A stretch of 24,118 nt of DNA from Candidatus Aminicenantota bacterium (GTDB lineage: Bacteria > Acidobacteriota > Aminicenantia > JAMOAD01): contig JAMOUT010000090.1 of the NCBI GenBank assembly GCA_027061995.1, positions 1 to 24,118 of the forward strand, given 5' to 3'. Under the pieces are notes generated by a model. It saw only the letters and a program-made list of their open reading frames with translations, was not told the DNA's origin and made no database searches. Each line of letters begins with the position of its first letter. Position 1 is the first letter of the stretch. Shown here in pieces: positions 120 through 23,851 of the stretch. The translations under genes and the position numbers were made by a program.

Positions 120-878
120 TTAGTCGAATTTATCCTGATTCTCCTCTTTGTCTTTCCCTTTTTTATCATAATCATATATCTCTATTTTATCCGAATAATA
201 CCATGGAAACATATCTCTTCTTAATTTAGCCATCCATGTTTTTCCTTCCGCTTTTCTTTTAAGATTATAAAACACCACTCCCTCCGCGAATACTTTATCT
301 TTCCATCCCATCTTAGAAGCCCTTTTTGTATAATATCTTGAAAAGAGCCAATCTTTAAACCATGAACTCCAATTATCAAAAGTTCTTTCATGCTCATCAA
401 ATGATTTGTATCTTAGCGAGTTAATTGCCTTTTCAAAAGGATACCATTCATGCAAATCGAGTTTATAAGGATTTCCCTGAACTTTCGGACCTATCAATTC
501 TCCCGCCTGTTCTCCATTCTCTTTAACATATCCTTTCCCGATTGCCATGAAAATCCCTTCCATGATAAATGCTTTACCCTTAATTATTTGCAGAGGATCA
601 ATAATATTCAATCTGTTTTGAACAGTTATAAGTCTTCCGTTCTCAGTTAATATTTTGACATTTGTTCCATTAAGTTTTTCAACTGCGAATGTTTCAGAAT
701 CTTCAAAAACCCATTCATAACCGGGATTGATTCTATCAACAACAAGATAAACTTCGGGATTTCTCATCCCGAGTTTTCTCCCCTCTTTTTTCCACTGATC
801 TTTATTGACCTTAAAAGTTTGCCTTATAAAGGGACAATATAATTTGGGAAAATCTGATAATAATCTTTTTTCTTCCAT
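120..878 (-). CDS. RNA ligase family protein (ATP-dependent nucleotidyltransferase, Rnl2-like)
   Basis: A 252-residue covalent nucleotidyltransferase that probably seals RNA ends through a lysyl-AMP intermediate. Motif I is K68-L-N-G-T-N, which resembles the KxHGTN of T4 Rnl2 more than the KxDG of DNA ligases. A motif III-like stretch is FIMEGIF (about 105-111), motif IV is EGVVF (199-203) and motif V is MAKLRR with K218. A conserved-looking GPKVQGNPYKL segment lies at about 130-140. There is no OB fold or extra C-terminal domain of any size; the protein ends in a charged tail. The ATG has no Shine-Dalgarno site and sits 5 nt after a -10-like box, suggesting a leaderless transcript. It lies 40 nt after gmhB on the same strand. 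RNA repair is inferred; the substrate is unknown. Confidence 0.8.
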   Translation of the reverse strand: MEEKRLLSDFPKLYCPFIRQTFKVNKDQWKKEGRKLGMRNPEVYLVVDRINPGYEWVFEDSETFAVEKLNGTNVKILTENGRLITVQNRLNIIDPLQIIKGKAFIMEGIFMAIGKGYVKENGEQAGELIGPKVQGNPYKLDLHEWYPFEKAINSLRYKSFDEHERTFDNWSSWFKDWLFSRYYTKRASKMGWKDKVFAEGVVFYNLKRKAEGKTWMAKLRRDMFPWYYSDKIEIYDYDKKGKDKEENQDKFD

Positions 879-883
879 ATATA

Positions 884-912
884 AAAATACTATTTTTTTT
901 ATAAAATATCAA
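884..912 (-). promoter_or_regulatory. putative leaderless promoter of the RNA ligase gene
   Basis: On the minus strand TTGATA (907-912) is followed by 17 nt and TATTTT (884-889), then 5 nt and the ATG at 878. A start 6-7 nt after the -10 box would fall on the start codon. No purine-rich ribosome-binding site precedes the ATG. The -10 box matches consensus only moderately in a very AT-rich stretch. Confidence 0.5.
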
Positions 913-918
913 GTATTT

Positions 919-1470
919 TTATTTATTTAAAATATATTCCACCGCTTTTAAAAGATTATCGATAACTTTTACCTGTTCGGAATATTCTTTATTTTTCAAT
1001 TTTTCGTTTTCCTCTTTTCCTTTGCCCGTTAGGACAAGGAGAGGCTTAATTCCCGTATTAATCCCAAGCTCTATATCCGAGAGTTTATCTCCTATAATAA
1101 ATGATTTATTTAAATCAATATTAAACTCTTTTTCAGCTTCCTCAATCATACCGGGAGCCGGTTTTCTTCTCCTTGATTTTTCATCGGGATGAGACGGACA
1201 ATAGTATATCTTATCAATTTTAGCTTTCTCTTCTTTATATATCTCACTTTTTAATTTTTCATGTATTTTGGCAAGGTCTTCGTGATTATAATATCCTCTA
1301 CTAATACCAGACTGGTTTGTTACGATAATAACAAGATACTTTGCATCATTAAGCATTTTTATAGCTTTTGCGGCAAATGGATATATAATAAGTTCATCCT
1401 CGGATTTAACATAATTCGTATCTATATTAATGGTTCCGTCTCTATCGAGAAATACAGCCCTATTTTTCAT
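919..1470 (-). CDS. gmhB: HAD-family phosphatase, D-glycero-D-manno-heptose-1,7-bisphosphate 7-phosphatase-like
   Basis: A 183-residue HAD hydrolase of GmhB/histidinol-phosphatase type. Motif I is FLDRDGTIN with nucleophile D9 and acid/base D11, motif II is VTNQSG (about 50-55) and motif III/IV is IIGDKLSDIE (about 125-134). GmhB removes the 7-phosphate from heptose bisphosphate in ADP-heptose synthesis for LPS inner core. The usual zinc site is mostly missing: C91 and H94 (CPSHP) are present, but the CxC before RKPxPGM is replaced by S-R-R. The start overlaps the end of the heptosyltransferase gene by 11 nt, indicating translational coupling and a shared pathway. A polynucleotide 3'-phosphatase role is a less likely alternative, raised only by the adjacent RNA ligase. 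Confidence 0.82.
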   Translation of the reverse strand: MKNRAVFLDRDGTINIDTNYVKSEDELIIYPFAAKAIKMLNDAKYLVIIVTNQSGISRGYYNHEDLAKIHEKLKSEIYKEEKAKIDKIYYCPSHPDEKSRRRKPAPGMIEEAEKEFNIDLNKSFIIGDKLSDIELGINTGIKPLLVLTGKGKEENEKLKNKEYSEQVKVIDNLLKAVEYILNK

Positions 1471-2452: not shown

Positions 2453-2477
2453 TAAATATTTTTTATCTCTTTATCCC

Positions 2478-2822: not shown

Positions 2823-2837
2823 AATCTTCCTCCGATA

Positions 2838-4136
2838 TTACCTTTTTTTAATATAAGCTCTTCTGTTAAATCTCCTTGTTTCCTCTGTTGTATTATCATA
2901 TTTGGGATTTTCCTCTCCATAACTTATGGTCTGGAATCTTGCGGGCTCTATCCCGTTGGAGATAAGAAAATCTTTAACAGCTTGTGCTCTTTTCTCACCA
3001 AGAGCAAGATTATAAGCATTAGTGCCTATATTACAGGTGTGTCCTTCTATCACCACATTAAGTTCGGGGTGTGCTTTCAAGTCCTTTACTTCTTTTAGAA
3101 GGATTGTTTTTGCTTCTTCCGTTAATTCATAACTGTCAAAGGCAAAATAGGTATCTTCAAAAGACAAAGGTTTAACAACAGGTTTGGGAGGAGGAGGTGT
3201 TTCCTTTTCCTCTTTTATAACAGGAATGGGTTTAACCTCTTTCACTACCTTCTCTTTAATCGCTTCGGGAACGGAATTATAAACTATGGAAACGGCTCCA
3301 CCTTGGGAGGTAGCAAGACCGTCGGTAAAGAGAAGATTCTTTTTATAAGCGATATTTATCTTCCAATTTTTATTCAGAAGAAATTGAAAACCAGCCCATA
3401 CATCAAAACAATCTTCTTGATTTGCTTCCGAGTTCATATATTTTGTGTAAAGAGCTGTTCCGATAAGATATACTCTGTTGCTGAGTCTGTATTGTCCTCC
3501 GGCAGCGAAAGTGAATTCATCGGTTAGAATATCACTTGCCGTAGGGACTACAAAGGTTGTCAGATTTTTCTGCATGTAATTGATATAATCCGTTTTATTG
3601 AGTCTTCCGTTAAAAGTATATCCGAGGTTTACGGAAAAAATCCCTGTTTTACTTTTTTTGGTAGATACTATCAGGTTTCCGCCGAAAGCCGGCTTTGTTG
3701 TCGTAACAGCAACATCCTTGTCGGACATGGGCATTGAGATAAAACCTCGAACAGCAAAATTATCGGATAATGAAAATTTTAAACCGAAGTCCGCATAACC
3801 AACTCCCTGATAAAATCCTTCGTGGGCATAAGGAGTTCCATTATAATAGGAATCTTTCAAATTATCAGGGTCAACTCTTCTCAGAAAATTGATTCTGCCG
3901 CCGATTTCAAGATTATCGGTTAGTCCGTAACCAAAGCTAATATAGAAATCATTAATATCCGTATCCTGCTTTTGTCTGTCAATATTATCAAGTCCGAGAG
4001 AGAATTGATAATTTCCTTTCATTATCGAATTAGCATAAAAGAGTTTGAACAAACCGGAATTTCCATATTCGGAAGATATCAGAACCAAAGGTGAGATTAG
4101 TAAAATAACTAAAATAAATAAAATAAATTTCTTCAT
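2838..4136 (-). CDS. OmpA-family outer-membrane protein (beta-barrel plus peptidoglycan-binding domain)
   Basis: A 432-residue protein. Residues 1-21 form a signal peptide ending ISS. About 25-290 look like an outer-membrane beta-barrel: alternating hydrophobic strands with repeated FGYGLTDN / GLKFSLSDN / GGQYRLSNR turns. Residues 300-322 form a Pro/Lys/Glu linker (TPPPPKP). About 325-432 form an OmpA/MotB C-terminal domain with FDSYEL, IEGHTCNIG, YNLALGEKRA and FNRRAYI. This domain type binds peptidoglycan non-covalently and ties the outer membrane to the wall. GHTCNIG has Cys where GHTD is usual. A GAGGTGA ribosome-binding site supports the ATG. It leads an operon with a small exported protein, waaF and gmhB. 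Confidence 0.9.
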   Translation of the reverse strand: MKKFILFILVILLISPLVLISSEYGNSGLFKLFYANSIMKGNYQFSLGLDNIDRQKQDTDINDFYISFGYGLTDNLEIGGRINFLRRVDPDNLKDSYYNGTPYAHEGFYQGVGYADFGLKFSLSDNFAVRGFISMPMSDKDVAVTTTKPAFGGNLIVSTKKSKTGIFSVNLGYTFNGRLNKTDYINYMQKNLTTFVVPTASDILTDEFTFAAGGQYRLSNRVYLIGTALYTKYMNSEANQEDCFDVWAGFQFLLNKNWKINIAYKKNLLFTDGLATSQGGAVSIVYNSVPEAIKEKVVKEVKPIPVIKEEKETPPPPKPVVKPLSFEDTYFAFDSYELTEEAKTILLKEVKDLKAHPELNVVIEGHTCNIGTNAYNLALGEKRAQAVKDFLISNGIEPARFQTISYGEENPKYDNTTEETRRFNRRAYIKKR

Positions 4137-4164
4137 TCTTCACCTCATTAATTAATCTAATTTA

Positions 4165-5329: not shown

Positions 5330-5375
5330 TACATATCCATTTTAAATATCTATAAATTTTTATATATTTATTAAC

Positions 5376-6635
5376 TTACGGGAAAACCACTGAATCTCCG
5401 AACTTTTTATTTTTAATCTCTTCTTCATATTCTTTTATTGCATTAGCAAGTCTTTTTATCCCCTCTTCAATGTTTTCTTTTGTTGCATAAGAAAAATTCA
5501 ATCTGAAAGAATTTTTACATTTTGCTTGGGGATGAAATGCCTCCCCTATGACAAATGCCACTTTTTTATCAATGGCTTTTAGAAATAGTTCCCTCGAATC
5601 CATATATTCCGGTAGATTAACCCAAAGAAATAAGCCTCCTTCAGGGTGAGTCCATGATAACCCTTCCAATTTAGGCATAAATTTTTCAAGGCTTGAAAGC
5701 ATTTTATCTCTTTTTTCCATATAATCCTTTCTTATAATATTAATTTGTTTTTCCAAATAGCCCCTTTTAAGGTATTCATAAGTGATTGATTGTGTGAAAG
5801 GGGATGTGCAAAGATCAGCCGCTTGTTTTGCCATTATTATTTTTTCTATCAATTCCTTAGGCCCCACTATCCATCCTAATCTGAACCCCGGAGCAAAAAT
5901 TTTTGAAAATGTAAAAAGTGAAATAACTCTATCGCTGTTATCAAGTGTTATCATTGGAGTTATGCTATTCCCTGAATATCGGAGCTGTCTGTAAGGGGTA
6001 TCCTCAATAACAATGAGATCATATCTTTCAGCTATATCCAAAATCCTTTTTCTTCTCTCCTCCGAGGTTGTAATTCCCGCAGGATTTTGAAAATCCGGGA
6101 TTATGTATATTAGTTTTAATTTATCTGAAAAACCTTTATCAATTAGTGTCTTTATGTTTGCTTCAAGACTTTCGGGAAGAATCCCGTCTTTATCAGATTT
6201 AACGGCAACCATGTTGGCACCGTAAGAATTAAAAGCTTGAATTCCTCCAACATAGGTGGGTTCTTCCACAAAAACAAAATCTTTTCTATTAAGAAATATT
6301 TTCGCGACCAAATCCAATGCTTGCTGAGATGCTGATACAATCAGGATGTTATCTACGGTTGTTTCTATCCCTTCATCTTTCATATGTCTGACTAATTCCT
6401 CTTTTAATCTTGTATCACCTTCGGTAGGACCATATTGCAAAGCGATTTTACCCTCTTTTTCAAGAATATAATCTGTAACATCTTTAACCTCTTCAATAGG
6501 AAAAAGATCGGGAGCCGGAAGCCCTCCTGCGAAAGATATTATTCCGGGAATTCTTGTTACTTTTAATAATTCCCTTATTTCACTTCTTTTCAAGCCAATA
6601 GCATTTTTTGAAAAAAGTTTTTCATAATTAATCAT
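5376..6635 (-). CDS. PLP-dependent aminotransferase (class I/II, aminoadipate/LysN-like)
   Basis: A 419-residue fold-type I aminotransferase. Visible features are ISFAGGLPAPDLFP (about 33-46), YGPTEGDTRLKEEL (about 68-81), PTYVGG, PDFQNPAGIT (about 180-189), EDTPYRQLRY and the PLP lysine K245 in FTFSKIFAPGFRLGW. R378-type arginine is near NSFRLNFSY at the C-terminus. This pattern is that of the LysN/aminoadipate/aromatic group and of the MocR aminotransferase domain, but no DNA-binding domain is attached. The amino donor and acceptor cannot be read from sequence. GGAGGA precedes the ATG; the gene begins 16 nt after the glycoside hydrolase stop, so the two are probably co-transcribed although no pathway link is evident. 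Confidence 0.86.
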   Translation of the reverse strand: MINYEKLFSKNAIGLKRSEIRELLKVTRIPGIISFAGGLPAPDLFPIEEVKDVTDYILEKEGKIALQYGPTEGDTRLKEELVRHMKDEGIETTVDNILIVSASQQALDLVAKIFLNRKDFVFVEEPTYVGGIQAFNSYGANMVAVKSDKDGILPESLEANIKTLIDKGFSDKLKLIYIIPDFQNPAGITTSEERRKRILDIAERYDLIVIEDTPYRQLRYSGNSITPMITLDNSDRVISLFTFSKIFAPGFRLGWIVGPKELIEKIIMAKQAADLCTSPFTQSITYEYLKRGYLEKQINIIRKDYMEKRDKMLSSLEKFMPKLEGLSWTHPEGGLFLWVNLPEYMDSRELFLKAIDKKVAFVIGEAFHPQAKCKNSFRLNFSYATKENIEEGIKRLANAIKEYEEEIKNKKFGDSVVFP

Positions 6636-6650: not shown

Positions 6651-8126
6651 TTATCTGTTAATTAATAATTTAAGATTCAGCGTATATATTAAATCAAATA
6701 AACTTCTGTTAATTGTTGTTTTTTCATATATATTTAAAAGGGTAATCGCTCTTTTAATCTTCTGTTTTAATTCCTGTTTTTTACTGACTTTTTCAAGTGT
6801 TTTTAAAAAAATATCGGTTCTTCGGATAAGATTATCCGGTAAATCTTTATCAACTCCTTTATCAAAAACATTAAATACTTCATCTGTCCATAAATAGAGG
6901 AGTTTCCTTAATTCTTTTTTTAGCTTTGGATTTTGGTTTATAATCTTATAAAATTCCTCACTTAATGAATAATATAATTTAATATTGTCTCTTGCGGTAT
7001 TGTATTTTGTTCCGTAAATTTCATCCCTTATATATCTCCCTTTCCTTATCGTCTCTCTATCAAAAGGGATGATATATTTATATGCGCAAATTTTCTTTTG
7101 ATTATTGTTATTATCATCGTCTCCTATATAATCTGATTCATTTGCAATAAAATTTTTGTATGTATAATAAGCTTTCTTAGGTGTATTATTACTTTTGAGT
7201 ATGCCGTAATACGAGACATCTTCTATATCTTTAATCTCATAAAAGAAAATTTTATCAACCGAGGATGAATTTAAAACTTTCTTAAGTATATTCAAATAGT
7301 GTTCCGCCTGCTGATCTTCGGTTATATTTGTGGTAGGCCAACCTGTTTCTGTTAACCAAAAATCTTTTCCGCCACACCCCGTAATATTTAAAATATGCAT
7401 AACCGAATCATAAACAACATCCCCTTTTTCAATTTTATCCATAATCGCTTGCGCCCCTTTACTATCGTATATATGCATGGAAATGATATCTATGTATTTT
7501 TTCCCCATATTTAAAACAGGGGTAAGATATGTATCCCATCTGCTACCGGGGGATGTCAGATATGTTATATCCGGTGCGACTATTTTAGAGTTAGAATCTA
7601 TTGCTTTTATGGTATTAACCGCCGGAATTAAAATATCGTTAACATATGTTCGAGGTGAGCCTTTAAAAAAATCATCAACATTAGGCTCATTCCAAATACT
7701 CCAATATTTTATTTTGCCTTTGTATCTTTTTGTGGTAACGGAGATAAAATTTGTCCAATATTTTGTTTTTAAAGGGGGAAAATTTTTGCTTTTTCCGCCG
7801 TTTGCCCAACTTGGGGTATCTCCTAAGATTGCAAGGATTTTCAAACCATTATTTATTGCATAATGAACAACCCTATCAACATTCCCGAAGTTATAATGTC
7901 CCCTTCTTGATTCGATATCAGCCCAACTTACATCAATCCTTATCCACCCTATATTAGCCTCTTTTACTTTTGCAAGAACAGTATTATTCCAAAGATGAAC
8001 ATTTATACCGTAATTATCGGAAGAGGAATAAGCAGGCAAACCGACTAATAGTAGAATAAATATTAAAATAAAATAATTTAAGTTAAATTTGGATTGATTG
8101 TTCTTTTTAGGTTGATTTGTTTTCAT
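6651..8126 (-). CDS. exported glycoside hydrolase, clan A (GH39/GH5-like), with helical C-terminal extension
   Basis: A 491-residue protein from the ATG at 8126. A short basic N-terminus precedes a hydrophobic segment (about 15-30) ending PAYSSS, a signal peptide. About 35-325 form a TIM-barrel glycosidase: IRIDVSWADIE, GDTPSWANGG, WSIWNEPN with acid/base E147, and WLTETGWPT with nucleophile E260. Residues about 340-491 are a Lys-rich helical region of unknown function, separated by an Asp/Asn linker (GDDDNNNNQ). Possible roles include exopolysaccharide hydrolysis, as for PslG. An in-frame TTG at 8141 is less likely because the ATG lies 5 nt after a good -10 box. There is no Shine-Dalgarno site. 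First gene of an operon with the aminotransferase. Confidence 0.82.
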   Translation of the reverse strand: MKTNQPKKNNQSKFNLNYFILIFILLLVGLPAYSSSDNYGINVHLWNNTVLAKVKEANIGWIRIDVSWADIESRRGHYNFGNVDRVVHYAINNGLKILAILGDTPSWANGGKSKNFPPLKTKYWTNFISVTTKRYKGKIKYWSIWNEPNVDDFFKGSPRTYVNDILIPAVNTIKAIDSNSKIVAPDITYLTSPGSRWDTYLTPVLNMGKKYIDIISMHIYDSKGAQAIMDKIEKGDVVYDSVMHILNITGCGGKDFWLTETGWPTTNITEDQQAEHYLNILKKVLNSSSVDKIFFYEIKDIEDVSYYGILKSNNTPKKAYYTYKNFIANESDYIGDDDNNNNQKKICAYKYIIPFDRETIRKGRYIRDEIYGTKYNTARDNIKLYYSLSEEFYKIINQNPKLKKELRKLLYLWTDEVFNVFDKGVDKDLPDNLIRRTDIFLKTLEKVSKKQELKQKIKRAITLLNIYEKTTINRSLFDLIYTLNLKLLINR

Positions 8127-8131
8127 AAAAA

Positions 8132-8160
8132 AGTATATCAACTAATAATCATTCAGTCAA
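8132..8160 (-). promoter_or_regulatory. putative leaderless promoter of the glycoside hydrolase operon
   Basis: On the minus strand TTGACT (8155-8160), 17 nt, TATACT (8132-8137), then five T and the ATG at 8126. Each box is 5 of 6 to consensus. Normal start-site spacing puts the first nucleotide on the A of the ATG. This also argues against the in-frame TTG at 8141, which would lie inside the promoter. Confidence 0.68.
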
Positions 8161-8247: not shown

Positions 8248-10512
8248 CTATTTTTTGCCGGTTTTATAAAAGATTATCTTTTTTATACTTTTATTTCCGG
8301 CATAATCCCAAACAATAGCAGACAGATTGTTTTTCCCTTTTTTAATAAATTTTGATATCGGATAAAACATTGATGCTTTGTCAGGATCATAAATCGCCCA
8401 AACTTTTTTTCCGTTAATAATAAAAAATGTTTTATGATAATCTATCCCTTTTCCTATATCTCTGATAATTGCAACCGCTCTTCTGATTTTCCCGTATCTT
8501 CTCCCGTTTTTCGGATAATAAAATTTAAGTTCAGGGGGATATTCATCTGCCATTAGTGCATAAGTTCCCCCAAGCCAAATTTTTGCAGACATATAACCGT
8601 TTTTTATCTTTTCCCCTACCATTTTCCATCTTCCCGCCATTTTATCATATCGGAAAATACCCAACCTTTTCTTAAAACTATAATCGGTTAATTTTGTTTT
8701 AAGTATAACTTTTTTCTTGAAAGGAAAATTATCGGGTGAAATTGTGAAAAAATCCCTTAAAGGAAAGAGTCGGGGTTCAAAAGGATATTTTTCTTTTGAT
8801 ATTTTAAAAATAAAATTTTTATAAAGAGAATTTTTACCGAAAATCAATTGATAATTATTAAAATCAATAGTTTTGCTTTCCCCTTTTTTAACAAAAAAGA
8901 ATCTTTTAAAATCGGGCTTTATCTTTTTGTAATAGTAATCTCCCATATATATTGCTTCGGGCATATATCTCTTTGTTTTTATCACTATATCATCAATCAA
9001 AAGGAGTTTTTCCTCTTTTGCCTTTACCCCGTTTTTTCTAAAAACAAAAGGATAATAATTTTTTCCAAATCTGAGCCTTAATACCCCATTGTAGAGAGGA
9101 AGATTTGTTTTCCCTTTTTCAATTTTACCCGATTTTTTCCAAAATTCCCATTTCCCTGTTTTAAAAGAGTCTATTATTAACCTGTTATCATTCTTTTGTA
9201 TATTAAAACCATCTGTTTTTTCCGAAATAATATTAAACCTGTTTAACCCCCATGGAGAAAATCTGTTTTTTCTTACCCTTATATAATATTTTAATCCGTC
9301 AAAAGGTCTGGGAATAGATATTTCAACTCTTCTCTCATCAATTACTCTGTAATTTTTACCGTGAAAGAGTTTTTCCTCTTCCCCTCTTATCTGAATCTCC
9401 ATATTATTAATTATATTTTCAAATGTTAACTCAAATTTTGTCGGTGATATCTTTTTGATTATTGATATTACGGGAGGGGTATTATCTGTTTTTATAATTT
9501 CAATGGTTTTAACAGTTTGGTTTCCCCAATAATCAAAAACTTTTATTTTTAACAGGTGTTTCCCTTTTTCAATTTTTTCAAATAGGGTGGAAGGGGGAAT
9601 GTCCATTTTTGCTATCCCTTCTCCGTAGTAAGGATAAATATTATAAAAAAAATAATCTTTCTTGTATGATGATTTATTAAGGTCATAGATTAACCCTATT
9701 TGATGACTTCTGTAAAACGGAATTTTATCAAACTTAACCTCTGATATAAGTGTTTGATCAAGATAAAGTTTCCAACCGTAAATTCCCGTCCTGTCATATT
9801 TATAATATTTGTCCCAAGCTGTAATTGTTATTGAAAAAGGGCCTGAAATATAAACAGGTTTATTATGCTTTTTCTTTCCATTCAATTTAATTATTTCCGT
9901 TGTAAGTTTTCCATTGATGAAGCTTCCGAATTTAAGGGGTTTTAATATTATTTTTCCTATTCTCGGAGAGAGGGTATCATCAATTTTAATGTATGTGAAA
10001 GTATTAATAGGGTTATTATCCAAATCCCTTATTTCAAAATGAAGATGAGGAGGGCCGGCACCTGTTTCTCCGCTGTAAGCTATTATCTGACCTTTTTTAA
10101 CAAATACCCCTTTATCCTCAAAAAAATAATCACCGAAGTATCTCCCGTCCGTCCCTTCGACAAGTTGTTCTGATAAATCTTCCAATTCTAATACTTTATT
10201 TTCAAACTTGTCGAGATGTCCGTAAACACTCATGAAATTTTTATGTCTTATATATACAGCCTTTCCGAATCCGTAAAATTTATTCGACAATCTGAATATA
10301 TATCCCTCTTCCACGGCTCTGACAGGGATACCGATTTTCCCGAAGGTGGAAAAATCAATCCCTCCGTGAAAATGGTTCCCTCTGAAACCGGCGAATATGG
10401 ATTTTATCCTTATATCAATGGGAATAGGGTAGATGAAACTTTTTTTCGATGGGTAAAGATTAAAAGAGAGTGATAAAATAAAAAACATGATTAAAATATT
10501 TTTTCTTTTCAT
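8248..10512 (-). CDS. large exported M23 metallopeptidase with C-terminal beta-sandwich regions
   Basis: A 754-residue protein. Residues 1-20 are a signal peptide (MKRKNILIMFFILSLSFNLY). About 27-175 form an M23/LytM domain with the zinc ligands intact: H49 and D53 (HGGID), HLHFE with H156/H158, plus VYGHL (about 96-100). Such domains cut peptidoglycan cross-links in the periplasm. The remaining 570 or so residues are beta-rich and repeat motifs such as DNTPPVISI (about 350), resembling Ig-like/FN3 segments, and end in a DYAGNKS repeat region. An upstream in-frame ATG at 10551 would add 13 residues without signal-peptide character and would lie before the -35 box, so the ATG at 10512 is chosen. 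No Shine-Dalgarno site. Apparently monocistronic. Confidence 0.84.
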   Translation of the reverse strand: MKRKNILIMFFILSLSFNLYPSKKSFIYPIPIDIRIKSIFAGFRGNHFHGGIDFSTFGKIGIPVRAVEEGYIFRLSNKFYGFGKAVYIRHKNFMSVYGHLDKFENKVLELEDLSEQLVEGTDGRYFGDYFFEDKGVFVKKGQIIAYSGETGAGPPHLHFEIRDLDNNPINTFTYIKIDDTLSPRIGKIILKPLKFGSFINGKLTTEIIKLNGKKKHNKPVYISGPFSITITAWDKYYKYDRTGIYGWKLYLDQTLISEVKFDKIPFYRSHQIGLIYDLNKSSYKKDYFFYNIYPYYGEGIAKMDIPPSTLFEKIEKGKHLLKIKVFDYWGNQTVKTIEIIKTDNTPPVISIIKKISPTKFELTFENIINNMEIQIRGEEEKLFHGKNYRVIDERRVEISIPRPFDGLKYYIRVRKNRFSPWGLNRFNIISEKTDGFNIQKNDNRLIIDSFKTGKWEFWKKSGKIEKGKTNLPLYNGVLRLRFGKNYYPFVFRKNGVKAKEEKLLLIDDIVIKTKRYMPEAIYMGDYYYKKIKPDFKRFFFVKKGESKTIDFNNYQLIFGKNSLYKNFIFKISKEKYPFEPRLFPLRDFFTISPDNFPFKKKVILKTKLTDYSFKKRLGIFRYDKMAGRWKMVGEKIKNGYMSAKIWLGGTYALMADEYPPELKFYYPKNGRRYGKIRRAVAIIRDIGKGIDYHKTFFIINGKKVWAIYDPDKASMFYPISKFIKKGKNNLSAIVWDYAGNKSIKKIIFYKTGKK

Positions 10513-10519
10513 TTGAGAT

Positions 10520-10548
10520 ATTATAATGCAATAGTGCAAGATATGCAA
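10520..10548 (-). promoter_or_regulatory. putative leaderless promoter of the M23 peptidase gene with TTGCA iterations
   Basis: On the minus strand TTGCAT (10543-10548), 17 nt, a perfect TATAAT (10520-10525), 7 nt, then the ATG at 10512. Transcription would start at or within a base of the ATG. TTGCA occurs three times, 9 and 8 nt apart (10544-10548, 10535-10539, 10527-10531), covering the -35 box and spacer, which could be an operator. Confidence 0.68.
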
Positions 10549-14024: not shown

Positions 14025-15275
14025 TCATTCTCTAACAATAGTGATTGTGGAGTATTTTGAATTAAGGAGAAAAATGTTTTTTTCACCATTATTGCCATAA
14101 ATCCCTTTTATAATATTTTTATCCGTTGATATTTGTAAAAAATCGGAATTGAGAACTCCCCAATTAAGATTAATATTAAAAAAAGTATTATTTATATCCT
14201 TTATTTTTATAAAAGTTGTAGTTGATATAAGATTAAAAGAGATTGTTCCCGTTATTTTTTCTATATCAATCTTTATATTCCCTTGCTCTTCAATAATATC
14301 ACCTTTGTTTTTGATTGACATATTGAGGTTATCATATTTTCCTTTTAGAGAAAGTTCATCACTGCTTCCCTTTATTTTATTCCCTTTTCCCTTAACCTGA
14401 AGTTTCTTGAGTTTTCCGAATATTCTGTTTTCTTTCCCGATTAATAACAGGGAGTTTGAATTATTAACCGAGATATTTGAATAACTTGTTTCAATCTCTA
14501 TATCCTTTGAATTATTAATTTCCAGATTTTCACAGTATTTGTTTTTTAGTTTTAATGTTCCCGAAACATGATTTATTATCACGGGGGTAAATTTAGTGTC
14601 AAGTTTTAAATCCCCGCCAACATTTTTAACACTGATTGATTTTCCGTATTTTGTTTTTACGGAAAGAGAGCCTTTTATATCGGAAAGTTGCATCTTACTG
14701 TATTTTGTTACTATATTTACGCTATCTTTGACTCCGTTAATATAAATATCTCCGTATCCCGATTTTATAAAAGCGGAGTCTATGTTTTTTATATTCATAT
14801 CCGAATATTTATCATCCACTTTTATTTTTAAAGCACCATCTATCTCTATGGTTCCATCACGATTCACTAATTCATAATCGATTTTACTCGGAGTCTCAAT
14901 TTCATAACTTATTTCTCCTCTGAAATTTTCAGGGGTTATGTTTTTTAAAAATAATTCTCCGTTTTTTATGGTTCTTTTTATATTAGCCTTTTCCCCCGAA
15001 TAACCGATTGTCGCTTTGATTTTTATTTTATCTATTTTTGGATTGGTTTTTATCAGGATTCTCCCCCGATAAGCTTTAAGTTTAATCTTTTTTATCCCCG
15101 ACTCTTTAAATAATATGCGGCTGTATTTTAAATTCTTAATCGGACTCACTCTGCGAGAATCATTAAAATCAATGATAATATTCTTTTTGATCTCCGGTAT
15201 TTTTCTTCTTCCCTCATAGTAGAAGATGGAAAGGATTATCAAAAAAACAGATAAACCTATCTTATTATTTTTCAT
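14025..15275 (-). CDS. membrane-anchored DUF4097-like (toastrack) beta-repeat protein
   Basis: A 416-residue protein with one N-terminal hydrophobic segment (about 5-20) and then an almost all-beta protein. From about 154 to 279 it has imperfect repeats of 18-20 residues, each opening with K/T-Y-S or K-Y-G (DKYSDMNI, SGYGDIYI, TKYSKMQL, TKYGKSIS, TKFTPVII, NKYCENLE, TSYSNISV). This is the stacked-strand pattern of DUF4097/toastrack domains, usually found next to LiaI/LiaF-like membrane segments in envelope-stress systems. The ATG at 15275 has GGAG at the right distance, inside the preceding gene; another ATG at 15293 is less well placed. Last gene of the sigma-factor operon. It probably acts at the outer face of the inner membrane. 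Confidence 0.75.
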   Translation of the reverse strand: MKNNKIGLSVFLIILSIFYYEGRRKIPEIKKNIIIDFNDSRRVSPIKNLKYSRILFKESGIKKIKLKAYRGRILIKTNPKIDKIKIKATIGYSGEKANIKRTIKNGELFLKNITPENFRGEISYEIETPSKIDYELVNRDGTIEIDGALKIKVDDKYSDMNIKNIDSAFIKSGYGDIYINGVKDSVNIVTKYSKMQLSDIKGSLSVKTKYGKSISVKNVGGDLKLDTKFTPVIINHVSGTLKLKNKYCENLEINNSKDIEIETSYSNISVNNSNSLLLIGKENRIFGKLKKLQVKGKGNKIKGSSDELSLKGKYDNLNMSIKNKGDIIEEQGNIKIDIEKITGTISFNLISTTTFIKIKDINNTFFNINLNWGVLNSDFLQISTDKNIIKGIYGNNGEKNIFLLNSKYSTITIVRE

Positions 15276-15498
15276 CTGTTTCTCCGGTTTCATTTTGTGT
15301 TTCTATGGTTTTTTCCCTGCTATTTTGGGTAAAATACTCGTATAATGCTTTACCTCCGAAATAGATTAAAATAACAGGCCAAAATTTAAGAATTTCCCCT
15401 ATACTGATATCAACTCCGAGATTATTAAGCAAGAATACAAAACCTATAACCAATAAAACAATTCCCCAAAAAAGTGAATCTGTTTTTCTTTTACTCAT
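15265..15498 (-). CDS. small LiaI/LiaF-like two-TM membrane protein
   Basis: A 77-residue protein with two membrane segments (about 10-27 and 35-52) in the LiaI/LiaF-like arrangement: WGIVLLVIGFVFLLNNLG, then a WPVILIYFGGKALYEYF hairpin. A charged tail of about 25 residues follows. The second half resembles the C-terminus of the preceding 159-residue protein (WPVILI-GGK-YEYF against WPIVLIILGGKLVYNYF), so the two genes may be partly duplicated. AAGGAGG precedes the ATG, which overlaps the upstream stop (ATGA). Its last codons overlap the DUF4097 gene. The likely role is a membrane partner or sensor of the sigma-factor operon. Confidence 0.75.
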   Translation of the reverse strand: MSKRKTDSLFWGIVLLVIGFVFLLNNLGVDISIGEILKFWPVILIYFGGKALYEYFTQNSREKTIETQNETGETDEK

Positions 15499-15974
15499 TT
15501 TTTTCCTCCTTTAAAATAATTATATACTAATTTACCGCCTAATATAATCAGAACAATAGGCCAATAGCTTCTTATTGAATTCCAATTGATGATATCAAAA
15601 TTGATAAGCAAAAAAAGGATTCCGAAAAGCATAATGGTTGCGGAAATTAACGGATCCGTTGTTTCACCGGAACCCTTTGTTATAGTAATATCTTTCTCAG
15701 TTTGTATTGTTGAAGATTCTCCGTCCGCAAGGGCTTTTGCTTTATTATAGCTTTCAACAATAGTGTAAAAATAAAACCCTGTAAGGGCAAGCGATAAAAA
15801 AATCGCTTCAAATGTAATAATATGCGGTGCGTCAAGCAAATATACGAAGAGTGCAAATATCCCCATATATGAGATTCCTTTCATCAGTTCGCCGTTATAG
15901 ATTGCGCCTAACCCAGGAACAAATGATAGTAGTAAAGCGAGCCCCGGCGATTTTTCTCTGTTTTTATCTGCCAT
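15495..15974 (-). CDS. membrane protein with TM2/DUF5683-like and LiaI/LiaF-like parts
   Basis: A 159-residue protein. The N-terminal third (SPGLALLLSFVPGLGAIYNGELMKG, about 9-33) has the PGLG.IYNG pattern of TM2/DUF5683-like membrane hairpins, followed by two more hydrophobic segments (about 34-45 and 53-72). A polar loop (about 75-107) leads to a LiaI/LiaF-like pair (about 108-125 and 136-153), ending in a GGKK tail. AAGGAGG supports the ATG. The start lies 67 nt inside the preceding gene in another frame; the stop overlaps the next start by ATGA. Probably a membrane component of the envelope-stress operon. Confidence 0.75.
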   Translation of the reverse strand: MADKNREKSPGLALLLSFVPGLGAIYNGELMKGISYMGIFALFVYLLDAPHIITFEAIFLSLALTGFYFYTIVESYNKAKALADGESSTIQTEKDITITKGSGETTDPLISATIMLFGILFLLINFDIINWNSIRSYWPIVLIILGGKLVYNYFKGGKK

Positions 15975-16483
15975 TTTCTTTCCTCCTTGTTTTTTTTCTC
16001 TTTATTTATTAAATTTTCATAAACTTTTTCTATGTTTTTATCAAACATAAATACGAGTATATCTTTTGCTCCGGAAACTTTATCCATAAGATATTGAACA
16101 TTTGCTTTAACTTTATAGGAATAATAGGATAACTTATCATTATTCGGTTTAACATATGAAAATCCGAAAATAAGTAAAATCAAAATTATTGAAATTGCCG
16201 AGGAATAATTTAATTTCAGAAAAGAGAGACTTCCCGCAATAAATTCGAATATATTAAACTCTTTTTCATTATCGATCTTATCATAGATCTCTTGTAAAAT
16301 TTTGTTTTCCACTTTTGCGGGGATGATATCCATTTTAAAGTCAGGCAATGTGTCTTTTAACATCGTTTGAATCCTTAAAAATTCTTTTAATTTTTTATCT
16401 TCTCCGACTATCTTTTTCGCCTCTTCATATCTGTTATTATCCACCATCTCAATAATTTTTTGTTTTAAATCCTGTTTATTCAT
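15908..16483 (-). CDS. putative anti-sigma factor, single-pass membrane protein
   Basis: A 191-residue protein directly after the ECF sigma gene. A soluble N-terminal region of about 90 residues is followed by one membrane segment (about 94-112, SSAISIILILLIFGFSYV) and a Lys-rich tail. No HxxxCxxC zinc motif is seen, so it is not a ZAS-type anti-sigma factor; position and topology drive the call. The ATG at 16483 has AAGGAGG within the sigma gene, and the genes overlap by 8 nt. The 3' end overlaps the next gene by 67 nt, unusually long. An A8 run precedes the overlap, so the functional C-terminus could be shorter or altered by slippage. Confidence 0.6.
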   Translation of the reverse strand: MNKQDLKQKIIEMVDNNRYEEAKKIVGEDKKLKEFLRIQTMLKDTLPDFKMDIIPAKVENKILQEIYDKIDNEKEFNIFEFIAGSLSFLKLNYSSAISIILILLIFGFSYVKPNNDKLSYYSYKVKANVQYLMDKVSGAKDILVFMFDKNIEKVYENLINKEKKNKEERKWQIKTEKNRRGSLYYYHLFLG

Positions 16484-17012
16484 TGTTACCTCCTTCAAGA
16501 CTCAATATTATATCGGCAAGTTTTGACCTGACCCTATTCAGTCTTGATTTTACCGTTCCGATTGAGATTTTTTCCATTTTAGCTATCTCCTCGTAAGAAA
16601 AACCCTCAATCTCCCTTAAAATAATAAGATTTCTATCCTGCGGGTTTAATCTGTTTATCCCTTTCCACACAAGGTCCTTTAAAGTGAAATCGGGATCCCA
16701 ACCGGATACAAGATAATCTTTACTTTCGATAATAATAACTTTTTTATTCTTTCTGTAATTATCAATACAATAATTTTTCGCAATCCTATATATATATCTT
16801 TCAAAATCATTTTTAACAGGTTTTATTTTCTCTATATTTTTATAAACTCTGAAAAACACCTCCTGTGCCGCTTCTTCGGCAAACTCTCTGCTTCCGGAAA
16901 AACTGAGTGCATAAGAGTAAATCCTTCTTGAATAATTGTTCACTAACATTTTCCACGCCTTTTTATCATTGTTTTTTGCTCCGGCAATTAATTCATTAAA
17001 CTCCATACTCAT
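16476..17012 (-). CDS. ECF-family RNA polymerase sigma factor (RpoE-like)
   Basis: A 178-residue sigma factor. The region 2 part (about 10-85) includes FAEEAAQEVFFRVYKNI and the DNA-melting stretch YIYRIAKNYCIDNYRKNKK. Region 4 (about 120-172) includes LNPQDRNLIILREIEGFSYEEIAKMEKISIGTVKSRLNRVRSKL, a helix-turn-helix that reads the -35 element. Length is normal for ECF factors without extensions. ATGs at 17012 and 17006 are both possible; AAGGAAAT is better placed for 17012. It is the first gene of a five-gene operon with a membrane anti-sigma candidate, two LiaI/LiaF-like proteins and a toastrack protein, which suggests control by envelope state. Confidence 0.9.
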   Translation of the reverse strand: MSMEFNELIAGAKNNDKKAWKMLVNNYSRRIYSYALSFSGSREFAEEAAQEVFFRVYKNIEKIKPVKNDFERYIYRIAKNYCIDNYRKNKKVIIIESKDYLVSGWDPDFTLKDLVWKGINRLNPQDRNLIILREIEGFSYEEIAKMEKISIGTVKSRLNRVRSKLADIILSLEGGNNE

Positions 17013-17350: not shown

Positions 17351-17836
17351 ATGAAGAAAACCATAATGTTTTTTTTAATATTCTGTTTCATGGTTATTAC
17401 TGTTTTCAGCTTTTCATTGCAAACATATTTAAAGAGATGTAGGATGTCAACAAATAAAGTATTACTCCAAAGAGCTCATAAATTGTATAATTCTTCAGGT
17501 TGGCTTTTCTTGGATGTTAGAGAAAAAGATGAAATAATGAAAAGAGGAACTATTCCGGGGGCAAAGCATATACCGCGAGGTCTATTGGAATTCAGAATAC
17601 AAACGGTAGCTAATTATAATACGCCCATTATTATATTTTCAAATTCAAATGCAAGGGCAACTCTCTCCGCTTTCACTTTATCTAAGACTCTCGGATACGG
17701 AAAAGTTTATGTTCTTGAAGGTGGTTTTGAGGCATGGAAAAGGGCGGGGTATATAACGACAAAGCAAAACACATCTGACAACCCTCATCATAAGAATATT
17801 AATCATAAAATATTAAAAAAAATTAAAAGAAGATAA
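17351..17836 (+). CDS. exported rhodanese-domain protein lacking the catalytic cysteine
   Basis: A 161-residue protein with a signal peptide (about 1-22, ending FSFS) and a single rhodanese domain (about 35-135): LFLDVREKDEIMKRGTIPGAKHIP (starting near residue 52), an active-site loop, and YVLEGGFEAWKRAGY (starting near 120). In active rhodaneses the loop reads C-R-S-G-N-R; here it is S97-N-S-N-A-R, so the sulfur-carrying Cys is Ser and sulfurtransferase activity is unlikely. The tail is His/Lys-rich. ATG 17351 is chosen for the very strong ribosome-binding site AGGAGGAGG; an in-frame upstream ATG at 17267 precedes the promoter. A binding or sensing role in the periplasm is possible. It lies 112 nt before the histidine-kinase-like gene, which has its own promoter. 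Confidence 0.85.
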   Translation: MKKTIMFFLIFCFMVITVFSFSLQTYLKRCRMSTNKVLLQRAHKLYNSSGWLFLDVREKDEIMKRGTIPGAKHIPRGLLEFRIQTVANYNTPIIIFSNSNARATLSAFTLSKTLGYGKVYVLEGGFEAWKRAGYITTKQNTSDNPHHKNINHKILKKIKRR

Positions 17837-17889
17837 TTACATCATAATCCTTTGCAATTTCTTTCGTATCATGTAGGACTATACTCTAA

Positions 17890-17918
17890 TTGACATTTTT
17901 TATCATAAACATTATCAT
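17890..17918 (+). promoter_or_regulatory. sigma-70 promoter of the histidine-kinase-like gene
   Basis: TTGACA (17890-17895), 17 nt, TATCAT (17913-17918): -35 perfect, -10 5 of 6. The expected start near 17925 leaves a leader of about 24 nt to the ATG at 17949. The architecture closely copies the rhodanese promoter upstream. Confidence 0.7.
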
Positions 17919-17948
17919 AAATTATGGTAATAGATTTTAAAAGAGTGT

Positions 17949-19460
17949 ATGTGTGATATGGGAAAAAAACAGGGATTAAAAAACAAAATATTGATTTTAT
18001 CTCTGATTGTTTCCATATCTATTACAATAGTGATATATTTTTCGGTTTTGAGTATTTTAAAAAACGAAAGGAAAATTATTTACACCGATTATCTCGAAAA
18101 ATATGCTTTTCAACTGAAAATGACTTTAACCCCCTATATTATTGAAAATAATTCTACAATGATTAGACTAAGAGGGGGGAAACTATTTGTTAAACCTGTG
18201 GATATGATAAAAATAAATTTTTTAAATAGCGGACAAGAGATTGTTTTTGTATCCGATAAGATTAACAAGAATAAAATTGATTATGAAAAATTCTTATCTA
18301 AGACCATAATCATTAAAAATGACGGGAAAAAAATTGCAAAAATCTCGGTTTATATATCAAAAGATATTATTAAAGGGGTGATTGTCTTATTTACTAAAAG
18401 ATATTTGATTTTTTCTTTTTTGATTTTAATTCTATTAAATCTGACCGTTTATTATTTAGCTTCAAGATATTTAAAAGGGCTTGAAAATTTTATAAGAGAG
18501 TTTGAATCTTTAAAAGAACCGTCAAAATCAAAGAAACTTCAAACTGATGTTAGTGATTTAATCCCTATAGTGGATTTAATTAATCAACTCCTGTTATCAA
18601 TTGAAAGAAATACTGAGGAACTGTTTTCACATGAAAAATTGTTGCAAAGGGCAATCAAAACAAGAAAGGAGCAATTAAATAATCAATTAAAAAAACTTAT
18701 TGATTTGGAAAATAGGATTAGTATAGCTAAGAAAGATGTTGAAATAGGGGATAAAATGTCTTTGTTGACAAATATTTATATGGATATGAATGAAAAGTTG
18801 GAAACACCCATAATGGATATAATATCAGAGATAACCGAGTTTCTTAAAAACAAAAAGGTTGATGATAATGCTCGTCAAAAGTTGGAGATAGCGAGAGATT
18901 CCGCACATAAAATATTAAATATGATTTATAAGATAAAAAATTATACTTCCTTATCAAAAGTTTCAAAAACAACGATAGTATTGGAGCGATTAATCAAAGA
19001 GATTATACTAAAATATAAAAAGGAAACCAATATAAATTTTGTGTTTAAAAAAGGGGAAAAACGGGTTAAAATACTCGGAAACAAAATTCAATTAATAGAG
19101 ACATTTAATCATATTATTCGTAATTCAATAGAAGCTTTTCAAGATTTTGAAGGGAAAGAAAATACTGTAAAAATCAGTGTTAAACTTGAAGACCCTTTTG
19201 TAAATATAATTATTGAAGATAATGGTCCCGGTTTCCAGGATATAGCAAGTGCTTTTAATCTTTTTTACACAACCAAAGTAAATCCCCAGAATAAGGGATA
19301 TGGTCTGGCCTTGGTTGAAAAAATTGTTTCCGAGCACGGAGGTAAAGTTATTTTGGAGAATTTAAATGAGGGGGGGGCAAGAGTGATAGTCTCTTTACCC
19401 GTTATTGAGATCAAAGGGATAAAAGAAGAAAATGATGATTATGATGAAAATATTTATTAG
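17949..19460 (+). CDS. membrane histidine-kinase-like protein without the phospho-acceptor histidine
   Basis: A 503-residue sensor. Membrane segments at about 12-34 and 152-173 enclose an extracytoplasmic domain of about 115 residues. A HAMP-like or coiled-coil linker (about 175-265) follows, then a dimerisation region (about 266-330) and an intact HATPase domain (about 370-485) with N-box N391 (HIIRNSIEA), G1 EDNGPGF, F-box FYTTK and G2 GYGLALVEKIVSEHGG. The dimerisation region aligns without gaps to the NtrB-type H-box from K269-M270 to I291, including P287, but the His position is E282 (MNEKLETPI). Autophosphorylation on His is therefore not expected. No response-regulator gene is nearby. 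ATG 17958 is an alternative start; neither has a good ribosome-binding site. Confidence 0.85.
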   Translation: MCDMGKKQGLKNKILILSLIVSISITIVIYFSVLSILKNERKIIYTDYLEKYAFQLKMTLTPYIIENNSTMIRLRGGKLFVKPVDMIKINFLNSGQEIVFVSDKINKNKIDYEKFLSKTIIIKNDGKKIAKISVYISKDIIKGVIVLFTKRYLIFSFLILILLNLTVYYLASRYLKGLENFIREFESLKEPSKSKKLQTDVSDLIPIVDLINQLLLSIERNTEELFSHEKLLQRAIKTRKEQLNNQLKKLIDLENRISIAKKDVEIGDKMSLLTNIYMDMNEKLETPIMDIISEITEFLKNKKVDDNARQKLEIARDSAHKILNMIYKIKNYTSLSKVSKTTIVLERLIKEIILKYKKETNINFVFKKGEKRVKILGNKIQLIETFNHIIRNSIEAFQDFEGKENTVKISVKLEDPFVNIIIEDNGPGFQDIASAFNLFYTTKVNPQNKGYGLALVEKIVSEHGGKVILENLNEGGARVIVSLPVIEIKGIKEENDDYDENIY

Positions 19461-19515
19461 ATAGAAAAGTTGAAATTATTCAAATGTTCGATTTTTAGGG
19501 GCGAATATAGTGATA

Positions 19516-19544
19516 TTGACTTGAAATTCTAATAAGTGTAAAAT
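19516..19544 (+). promoter_or_regulatory. putative leaderless promoter of the DUF6677/VanZ/ThiF cluster
   Basis: TTGACT (19516-19521), 17 nt, TAAAAT (19539-19544), 6 nt, then the ATG at 19551. Each box is 5 of 6. The sequence just before the ATG (TACCCA) has no Shine-Dalgarno character, so transcription probably starts on the ATG. Confidence 0.65.
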
Positions 19545-19550
19545 TACCCA

Positions 19551-19916
19551 ATGAAATTAAAAACTTATCTTGTTTTTTTTATCGGATGGTTTATTCCCGG
19601 AGCAGGTCATCTTTTGTTAAAAAAATATTTTAGGGCGGCTGTATTCTTTATATCCGTAAGTTTGATGTTCTTTGTCGGAATTCTGATCAATGGTAAATTT
19701 TTCGAACATGCCGGTAATCCTCTTGCACTCCTTGCTTATTTCGGCGATATAGGAAACGGACTTCTTTTTCTTATAGCAAAATACGGTAAACTATTGAATG
19801 TTGATTATTCCTCCATAACTTATGAATACGGGACGGCTTTTCTTGCCACTGCGGGGTTTTTGAATTATATGATAGCTTTAAATGCTTACGATATAGCCAC
19901 GGGGAAGAAAAAATGA
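19551..19916 (+). CDS. DUF6677-like small integral membrane protein
   Basis: A 121-residue membrane protein opening with FFIGWFIPGAGHLLLKKYFRAAVFF (about 9-33), the GW-x-PGAGH-x-L..-RA pattern I associate with DUF6677. About four hydrophobic segments are seen (about 5-20, 28-47, 60-78 and 95-112). Function is unknown for the family. It has no Shine-Dalgarno site and is the first gene of a four-gene cluster; its stop overlaps the next start by ATGA. Assignment to DUF6677 is from memory of the pattern and should be read as probable. Confidence 0.78.
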   Translation: MKLKTYLVFFIGWFIPGAGHLLLKKYFRAAVFFISVSLMFFVGILINGKFFEHAGNPLALLAYFGDIGNGLLFLIAKYGKLLNVDYSSITYEYGTAFLATAGFLNYMIALNAYDIATGKKK

Positions 19917-22189: not shown

Positions 22190-22195
22190 TCTATC

Positions 22196-22942
22196 TTATC
22201 TTTTTTTGATAACTTTTGCCGGAGTTCCGACTGCTATTGAATATGAAGGGATATCTCTGTTTACAAGAGATGATGCTCCGACTATCGAGCCTTTTTCTAT
22301 TTTTATTCCGTCAATTATTGTGCATGATGCACCTATCCAAACATCGTCCTCTATTATAATCCCCCCTTTTGATTTTGAGGGTTGAAACATCATGGGTGTA
22401 TTTTTATCTTCATAACTATGATTTCCTCCGGCTACCATATAGGAATTTCCGGCAACAAAAACATATTTGCCGAGATATAATTTTGTTTCCGATATAAGAT
22501 AACAATTTGCCCCTATATTTGAATATTCCCCTATCTCAATATCTCCCTCTTTACAACTCAATATTGTGTTTCTCCCAATAAAAACATTATTATCTATCTT
22601 TATCCCTTTATTTTCCTCCCCTTTGGCATCAATAACACAATTTTCGTCAAAAATAACATTATCCCCTATCTCAATCTTTTTCGGATGTCTTATTGTTATA
22701 TTTCTGCCGAAAATCACCCCTTTGCCCGTTTTTTTAAATAACCCTTTTAAAAAGAGTTTTCTTAAAAAAAGTCCCAAAGCCCCCGGCATGGGATTTATAA
22801 ACATAGTTATAAATTCATATTTCATAAAGGTGAGAAAAGAGATATTTCCCGTGAAAATGGTTTTATATTTTGAAAACATCCCCCCATTTTTATCCAATAA
22901 GGTTTTTTGAGCGGATGCTCTTTTACTTTTTTCATCTAACAT
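22196..22942 (-). CDS. hexapeptide-repeat acyltransferase (WcaF/maltose O-acetyltransferase-like)
   Basis: A 248-residue protein. A N-terminal region of about 75 residues includes a hydrophobic/aromatic stretch (about 36-65). About 78-245 form a left-handed beta-helix of hexapeptide repeats (IEIGDNVIF, IKIDNNVFIGRN, IEIGEYSNIGANC, IIIEDDVWIGASC, IEKGSIVGASS), ending in the typical SIAVGTPAKVIKKR. H175 in GGNHSYED is the probable catalytic His. Such enzymes move acetyl or other acyl groups onto sugars, often for surface polysaccharide. GGGAG lies before the ATG. The gene is 20 nt after the HDOD gene. Confidence 0.86.
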   Translation of the reverse strand: MLDEKSKRASAQKTLLDKNGGMFSKYKTIFTGNISFLTFMKYEFITMFINPMPGALGLFLRKLFLKGLFKKTGKGVIFGRNITIRHPKKIEIGDNVIFDENCVIDAKGEENKGIKIDNNVFIGRNTILSCKEGDIEIGEYSNIGANCYLISETKLYLGKYVFVAGNSYMVAGGNHSYEDKNTPMMFQPSKSKGGIIIEDDVWIGASCTIIDGIKIEKGSIVGASSLVNRDIPSYSIAVGTPAKVIKKR

Positions 22943-22962
22943 TGTTTTCTCCCGATTTTAAT

Positions 22963-23817
22963 TTATATAAATGTTTCCGCATTTTCCATCTCCTCAAACA
23001 TAATATCCATAAGCTCTTTTATATCATGAAATTTAAGGTTAAGTGATTGAAGAGCGAATGAATCAAAAGTCGTTTCATATTCATCCATATCAAAAGAGTA
23101 TTCATTAAAGATACTGATTAAATTGGAAACATGCAAAATTGAAGATAATCTTTGATTAAGATTCGCTTGCGAAGGATAATGGTGGTTTGCTATGGAATCT
23201 GTTATATCCTCCGAGAACTCCCATTTATGGAGAAGGATGGCGGCTATTTCACTATGTGTTAAACCAAGCAATTGCTTTTCGATTTCATGAAGTCTCGGTA
23301 TATTGTTTTTATCTTTAAACTCTTTAATATCATATTTTGAAATAAATTCATTAAGGGCGATTTTACCTATATCTATAAGTATCCCTGCTGTAAAAGCAGT
23401 ATCAACGGGATGCACTTTTTTTAATCTTGCAAGAAATTGCGCACCTATTGCAGTATTAAGGGAGTGTTTGAAAACTTGTTCCTCCGATACTCCGTATCCT
23501 TCGAGATTATTTTTAAATCTTGATTTAACCGCATAAATCAGTGTTAATTTTTTTACCTCATTTACCCCTATAAGAGATATCGCATGATTAACGGAGGATA
23601 TTTTGCTTGTAAATCCGTAATAGGGGGAATTACAATGTTTTAAAATATTTGTTGTCAGCGAGGGATCTTTTTCTATTAATTCGGATAGTTTTTTTATGTT
23701 AATATCGGAAACTTTTAATAGTTTAAGTATTTCAGTGGGAACAGGTTTTAAAGGGGGGAGATAATTTAAGGAATCCAAAAATTCATCAAGATCTTTTTGC
23801 AAAATATCATTGTTCAT
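22963..23817 (-). CDS. HDOD-domain signalling protein
   Basis: A 284-residue protein made mainly of one HDOD domain (about 15-225): LPPLKPVPTEILKLL, LSELIEKDPSLTTNILKHCNSPYYG, SSVNHAISLIGVNEVKKL, FKHSLNTAIGAQFLA and AGILIDIGKIAL, where the His of the HD phosphodiesterase motif (HDIG) is Ile. HDOD proteins lack HD catalysis and act as regulatory or scaffold modules in signalling. An acidic C-terminus (about 240-284) follows. No output domain is fused. The ATG has no proper ribosome-binding site and lies 5 nt after a -10-like box. First gene of a three-gene unit with the acyltransferase and the Fe-S protein. Confidence 0.85.
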   Translation of the reverse strand: MNNDILQKDLDEFLDSLNYLPPLKPVPTEILKLLKVSDINIKKLSELIEKDPSLTTNILKHCNSPYYGFTSKISSVNHAISLIGVNEVKKLTLIYAVKSRFKNNLEGYGVSEEQVFKHSLNTAIGAQFLARLKKVHPVDTAFTAGILIDIGKIALNEFISKYDIKEFKDKNNIPRLHEIEKQLLGLTHSEIAAILLHKWEFSEDITDSIANHHYPSQANLNQRLSSILHVSNLISIFNEYSFDMDEYETTFDSFALQSLNLKFHDIKELMDIMFEEMENAETFI

Positions 23818-23822
23818 CCGTT

Positions 23823-23851
23823 ATATTAACAAAAAACCGGTTGTTTTACAA
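23823..23851 (-). promoter_or_regulatory. putative leaderless promoter of the HDOD operon with internal palindrome
   Basis: On the minus strand TTGTAA (23846-23851), 17 nt, TAATAT (23823-23828), 5 nt, then the ATG at 23817. Each box is 4 of 6, the weakest match of the set. An inverted repeat centred on CCGG (23831-23846, one mismatch) fills the spacer and could bind a regulator. Confidence 0.42.

Follow-up and report, generated by a model that had tools for sequence, protein, structure and literature searches.

Among the transcription-unit starts of the Aminicenantes genome studied here, about one in six or seven probably yields an mRNA that begins on the start codon itself. Where a sigma-70-type promoter places the end of its −10 box 5–6 nt before the ATG (a distance called the gap below), we are confident that the gene is leaderless and is served by an ordinary housekeeping promoter. 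The DNA itself establishes that the promoter motif is tightly spaced, occurs in excess of shuffled sequence, is restricted to unit heads, is excluded by Shine-Dalgarno (SD) sites and is conserved in relatives. The stretch that was analysed, referred to as the window, is 24,118 nt long and is contig C90 of an Aminicenantes MAG of 2.36 Mb (104 contigs, 95% complete, G+C about 31–32%). The aminotransferase encoded at 5376–6635 has its nearest named relatives in three Candidatus Aminicenantes MAGs (77–79% identity), with the next matches, from Cloacimonadota and others, near 50% identity.

A first-pass annotation of the window had described five genes without an SD site, each with a sigma-70-like promoter, an exact 17-bp spacer and a −10 box ending 5, 5, 7, 6 or 5 nt before the ATG. 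All five promoters proved letter-exact, and the SD energies of the genes range from +1.8 to −2.2 kcal/mol. At the RNA ligase-like gene (876–912, minus strand), the ATG at 878–876 is preceded by a 5-nt gap (879–883), a TATTTT −10 box (884–889), a 17-bp spacer and a TTGATA −35 box (907–912); the promoter scores 11.6 bits and the SD energy is +0.7 kcal/mol. These and the following bit scores come from a model trained solely on SD-led genes. The glycoside-hydrolase (GH) gene (8124–8160, minus strand) has its ATG at 8126, a gap of 5, TATACT at 8132–8137 and, across a spacer of 17, TTGACT at 8155–8160 (15.1 bits; +0.6 kcal/mol). For the M23 peptidase gene (10510–10548, minus strand) the ATG is at 10512, the gap is 7, and TATAAT at 10520–10525 is separated by 17 bp from TTGCAT at 10543–10548 (13.3 bits; +1.8 kcal/mol). 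On the plus strand, the DUF6677 gene (19516–19553) has TTGACT at 19516–19521, a spacer of 17, TAAAAT at 19539–19544, a gap of 6 and its ATG at 19551 (15.0 bits; −1.0 kcal/mol). The HDOD gene (23815–23851, minus strand), with its ATG at 23817, a gap of 5, TAATAT at 23823–23828, a spacer of 17 and TTGTAA at 23846–23851, has the weakest promoter of the five (9.3 bits; −2.2 kcal/mol). The same five start codons were chosen by a gene caller that uses coding content only and is blind to both promoters and SD sites.

The five had also been taken to be the first genes of their units, which divergent geometry bears out for the M23 gene but not, inside the window, for the other four. The RNA ligase gene starts 40 nt past a same-strand neighbour, and the GH and DUF6677 genes are each preceded by a same-strand gene, so that within the window only the M23 gene is a head by divergent geometry; next to the HDOD gene there is an opposite truncated ORF at 23943.

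Three further genes in the window had been described as leadered with SD sites, and proved to combine SD energies between −6.9 and −12.1 kcal/mol with promoters 28–29 nt from the ATG. The OmpA-family gene (2838–4136, minus strand; −6.9 kcal/mol) has TTGAAA-17-TATAAT ending 28 nt from its ATG, and the rhodanese-like gene (17351–17836, plus strand; −12.1 kcal/mol) has TTGACA-17-TATAAT at the same distance. For the gene of unknown family at 12588–13883 (minus strand; −12.1 kcal/mol) the distance is 29 nt.

To examine promoter spacing across the genome, 1.14 Mb were used, giving 993 genes, of which 958 had usable upstream sequence. Gene starts were computed with our own caller, and a unit head was defined as a gene with a divergent neighbour or with a same-strand neighbour at least 80 nt away. 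An EM promoter model, begun at the sigma-70 consensus but free to move and given no positional preference, was run on the unit heads and settled on TTGACA-17-TATAAT. The spacer is exactly 17 bp in 83–90% of the promoters of this genome. Boxes and spacing are those of a sigma-70 (housekeeping) promoter (TTGACA and TATAAT at 16–18 bp), and the spacer is 17 bp in 67 of 69 leaderless promoters, as called by a model that requires a −35 box. Since an exact 17-bp spacer occurs in nearly all promoters of the genome, it is no mark of leaderless genes. The gap, by contrast, separates the two kinds of head. For the 150 SD-less heads the model's mass at gaps 5 and 6 amounts to 24.6 and 14.9 genes; for the 177 SD-led heads there were almost none below gap 13, the bulk lay at 17–40, and only about 1 of the 177 fell at gap 5–6.

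A second, non-circular model was trained on 163 strongly SD-led heads only and so cannot have learned the gap-5 group. With this model the best promoter lay at gap 5–6 in 43 of the 150 SD-less heads, whereas shuffling these upstream regions 40 times with dinucleotide content preserved yielded 1.25 on average and never more than 4. The peak of −10 boxes at 5–7 nt over shuffled sequence, which the first-pass annotation had put forward as the check on its claim, is therefore present in the SD-less genes of this genome. The peak persists (of 88 genes, 19 have gap 5 and 14 have gap 6) when only forced starts are kept, that is, those with no alternative upstream start. An exact pattern search of the whole genome points the same way: TTGA-N19-TAWWWT-N5-6-ATG has 70 matches, compared with 4 for the reversed pattern and 22 at gap 13–14.

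Counting promoters at gap 4–7 with the non-circular model, 69 of the 958 genes (7.2%) are called leaderless. Their start codons are ATG in 67 cases, with one GTG and one TTG. Unit heads account for 49 of them (49/327, 15%), as against 5 of the 513 operon-internal genes (Fisher p = 3e-16). Two initiation modes, with leaderless starts at transcript heads, therefore coexist as had been suggested, but the suggestion does not extend to every SD-less head, since a large part of the 150 have no promoter near enough for a leaderless start. A pyrimidine at −1 and an A at +1 are expected at a transcription start. Among the 59 gap-5 and gap-6 cases, 36 have a T immediately ahead of the ATG, compared with 26% of SD-led heads and 19% of SD-less internal genes, which fits a transcription start at the A of the ATG.

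In the mechanism that we propose, the housekeeping RNA polymerase would use a standard TTGACA-17-TATAAT promoter together with its usual start-point distance, and the usual start point, 6–7 nt past the −10 box, would coincide with the A of the ATG. The resulting mRNA would open with 5′-AUG and ribosomes would bind it directly, with no SD pairing. We infer both the transcription start on the A of the ATG and this leaderless (70S-type) mode of initiation. Operon-internal genes cannot be initiated like this and for the most part rely on SD sites. The group with a gap of 8–10 likely carries a leader of a few nt.

The placement of the promoter could be followed in related genomes. Applied to two genomes of the window's family but of another genus (G003 and G004), the same test gave 20 promoters at gap 5–6 against 0.5 expected. 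For three of the five window genes, placement is kept at the orthologues across genera even though the surrounding DNA has changed. Orthologues of the GH gene in three other MAGs (L034, L035 and L036) have gaps of 5, 5 and 6 (5 in the window). Those of the DUF6677 gene have gaps of 5, 5 and 6 in G003, G004 and G002 (6 in the window), and 11 and 8 in two genomes of other families (G005 and G006). M23 orthologues in G003, G004 and G002 each have a gap of 8 (7 in the window), with a TTGC-type −35 box in common. The M23 gap is thus 7–8 in all four genomes rather than 5–6, which could mean a leader of 1–2 nt.

For the HDOD gene no promoter was seen ahead of the orthologues in G003 and G004, and its placement is not conserved. 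With the weakest promoter and no conservation, this gene is a counterpoint to the leaderless reading. The genomes of the six nearest relatives yielded no homologue of the RNA ligase. Reciprocal-best pairs between the window's genome and G003 or G004 included 8 whose member in the former is leaderless; in 5 of these both members are, a set too small for a rate of conservation and with paralogues mixed in.

Families of the class were compared by whole-genome exact counts of TTGA-N19-TAWWWT-gap-ATG at gaps 5–6, 9–10 and 13–14. The G+C content may differ among families and alter the raw counts, and gaps were therefore compared within a family and not across families. A strong peak at 5–6 was seen in the window's family, f1 (5 genomes; 286, 119 and 76), and in f5 (33 genomes; 1801, 750 and 563), and a weaker one in f4 (87, 64 and 33). 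There was no such peak in f3 (98, 136 and 82), f7 (93, 133 and 102), f9 (23, 34 and 13) or f2, represented by G005 alone (22, 42 and 36). In G005, the model run on SD-less heads found promoters at gap 7–11 in 13 cases, where 0.9 were expected, and very few at 5–6. Two further genomes, G013 and G016, were thinly sampled, and conclusions on G013, where the model gave no clear promoter, are limited to the pattern counts. One class thus holds families with the 5–6 nt peak (f1 and f5) and others that lack it (f2, f3 and f7), and this contrast makes the gain or loss of leaderless initiation traceable on the tree.

The gap-7–11 promoters of G005 are also what would be expected if leaders were ultra-short, with transcription starting 1–5 nt upstream of the ATG and the AUG being found by the 70S ribosome or by a small slide. 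The gap of 7–8 at the M23 gene in four genomes fits such an arrangement, as does a minor second group of promoters at a gap of about 9 in the SD-less heads of the window's own genome (8–9 genes). The main peak in the window's family, however, lies exactly at 5–6, which puts the standard start on the A of the ATG, and T is enriched at −1. We consider ultra-short leaders an improbable account of the gap-5–6 cases, and retain the reading that these are leaderless.

Start codons might also have been misassigned, so that the true start lies downstream behind an SD site and the promoter is 20–40 nt upstream of that start. This could apply to single genes, the starts being computed. As a systematic effect it was rejected: within the next 30 codons, a strong SD precedes another in-frame start in only 7% of the leaderless calls and in 12% of SD-led controls, and the DUF6677 orthologues align from residue 1. 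We hold it to be very unlikely.

Near-consensus −10 boxes are common in this AT-rich genome, at roughly 1–2% per position before internal ATGs, and TANNNT boxes could be expected by chance before ATGs everywhere. Chance is refuted by the composition-keeping shuffles and by ATG controls, in which a score of 9 bits at gap 5–7 was reached by just 0.2% of the in-frame ATGs inside genes (n=5022) and 1.2% of the non-start ATGs between genes (n=2422); the conserved placement in orthologues also stands against it, and we give it practically no weight. Equally negligible is a special sigma factor driving a leaderless regulon, such as the ECF sigma whose gene lies in the window at 16476–17012: leaderless and SD-led genes have the same TTGACA/TATAAT boxes, and the model trained on SD-led genes finds the leaderless promoters.

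A sixth promoter of the leaderless type, absent from the first-pass annotation, lies at 17890–17956 (plus strand), with TTGACA at 17890–17895, a spacer of 17, TATCAT at 17913–17918, a gap of 5 and an ATG at 17924 (15.9 bits). This ATG opens a 10-codon ORF, MVIDFKRVYV*, whose TGA (17954–17956) is separated by 1 nt from the start codon (ATG, 17958) of a histidine-kinase-like gene (HATPase_c; 17958–19460, plus strand) with a weak SD or none. The histidine kinase is possibly started by ribosomes finishing the small ORF. Its orthologues are diverged (28–31% identity). ATGs that open a frame other than the called gene at gap 5–6 below leadered promoters number 13 in the window's genome against 3.7 expected, or 9 against 3.0 with a stricter promoter threshold; in G003 and G004 together there were 0 against 1.5 expected. 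Leaderless small ORFs with translational coupling are accordingly presented as a candidate arrangement, a lead and not a result. A broader scheme seems to us possible but rather doubtful. Leaderless mini-ORFs of about 6–14 codons, with a promoter 5–6 nt before their ATG, would end at or across the start of a gene and hand the ribosome on by termination-reinitiation, and Aminicenantia families would have shifted between zero-nt leaders (gap 5–6) and leaders of 1–5 nt (gap 7–11).

As TTGACA-17-TATAAT ending 5–6 nt before an ATG would mark the start of both transcription and translation, it may improve the calling of starts and promoters in such genomes. Leaderless mRNAs had been described in the first-pass annotation as less often noted in LPS-bearing bacteria, which understates the record. 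Leaderless genes were reported in all three Acidobacteria examined (mean 13.3%, 9.7–19.4% of genes), in 8 of 33 deltaproteobacteria (15.8%) and in 2 of 5 Aquificae (26.5%) (Zheng et al. 2011, PMC3160421), and in Caulobacter crescentus 375 mapped leaderless mRNAs (9.6% of CDSs) are translated equally to leadered ones (PMC4117421). Like the genes of Zheng et al. 2011 (PMC3160421), those found here have a TA-type signal a few nt upstream of the start, lack an SD and are expected at proximal genes; unlike them, they belong to a group, the Aminicenantes, that is not listed in that study. The 7.2% of all genes found here is under the range given there for Acidobacteria (PMC3160421), although the criteria differ.

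Caulobacter crescentus is likewise LPS-bearing and leaderless, but its 5′ ends were mapped, whereas those described here are predicted from sequence; SD sites are also few in that species (24.6%, PMC4117421), whereas here they dominate inside operons. In mycobacteria, as may be the case here, leaderless transcripts and small ORFs share one translational landscape, which was documented there by RNA-seq and ribosome profiling (PMC4633059) and here by a statistical excess in one genome only. In Deinococcus-Thermus, too, the −10 box is a TANNNT motif lying a few bp ahead of the ORF; leaderless expression from it is experimentally established, and the spacing of this ORF-adjacent motif to the ATG was tested and found to matter (PMC12340547). 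There are two differences: the promoters here were nearly all assigned a −35 box at exactly 17 bp, by a model that requires a −35, and leaderless genes make up about one third of the total in Deinococcus radiodurans, far above the fraction here (PMC12340547). A search of the open-licence literature found no report on leaderless genes in Aminicenantes. Leaderless genes with an ORF-adjacent −10 box being well described in other bacteria, the novelty, from sequence alone, is one of lineage: a deep, uncultured, SD-using bacterial lineage would join those with leaderless genes.

The promoters of SD-less genes did not all place the −10 box 5–6 nt before the start codon (the gap). Within the genome that contains the window there was a minor peak at a gap of 9 nt (8–9 SD-less first genes of transcription units) beside the main 5–6 nt peak. 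In G005 (loci L199–L203 and L242–L251), a genome from another family of the class, the SD-less first genes had their promoters at gaps of 7–11 nt, with almost none at 5–6 nt. This spacing suggests that these transcripts would carry leaders of 1–5 nt rather than none.

For the M23 peptidase gene, a gap of 7–8 nt was retained in all four genomes compared (the window and the orthologues L228, L229 and L230). The −35 element of this promoter (window 10543–10548) was of an unusual TTGC type in each case: TTGCAT in the window, and TTGCAA, TTGCAT and TTGCCA in the orthologues. A truncated ORF divergent from the HDOD gene (23943 onwards) lacks an SD site and has TTGACA-18-TATATA 9 nt upstream of its ATG, and is a possible short-leader gene.

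A sixth leaderless-type promoter was seen at 17890–17960. It opens a small ORF of 10 codons, and only 1 nt separates the end of this ORF from the histidine kinase ATG (17958). Small ORFs with promoters of this leaderless type were over-represented in the window's own genome; no excess of this type was found in two relatives from another genus of the family (G003 and G004).

For the RNA-ligase-like protein (120–878), the Pfam score of 23.1 bits was below the cut-off of 27, and no homologue was found in the six nearest genomes. The 431-residue protein encoded at 12588–13883, whose gene has a strong SD site, had no match in Pfam or NCBIfam. An ECF sigma factor (16476–17012) is encoded by the first gene of a five-gene same-strand cluster (14025–17012).
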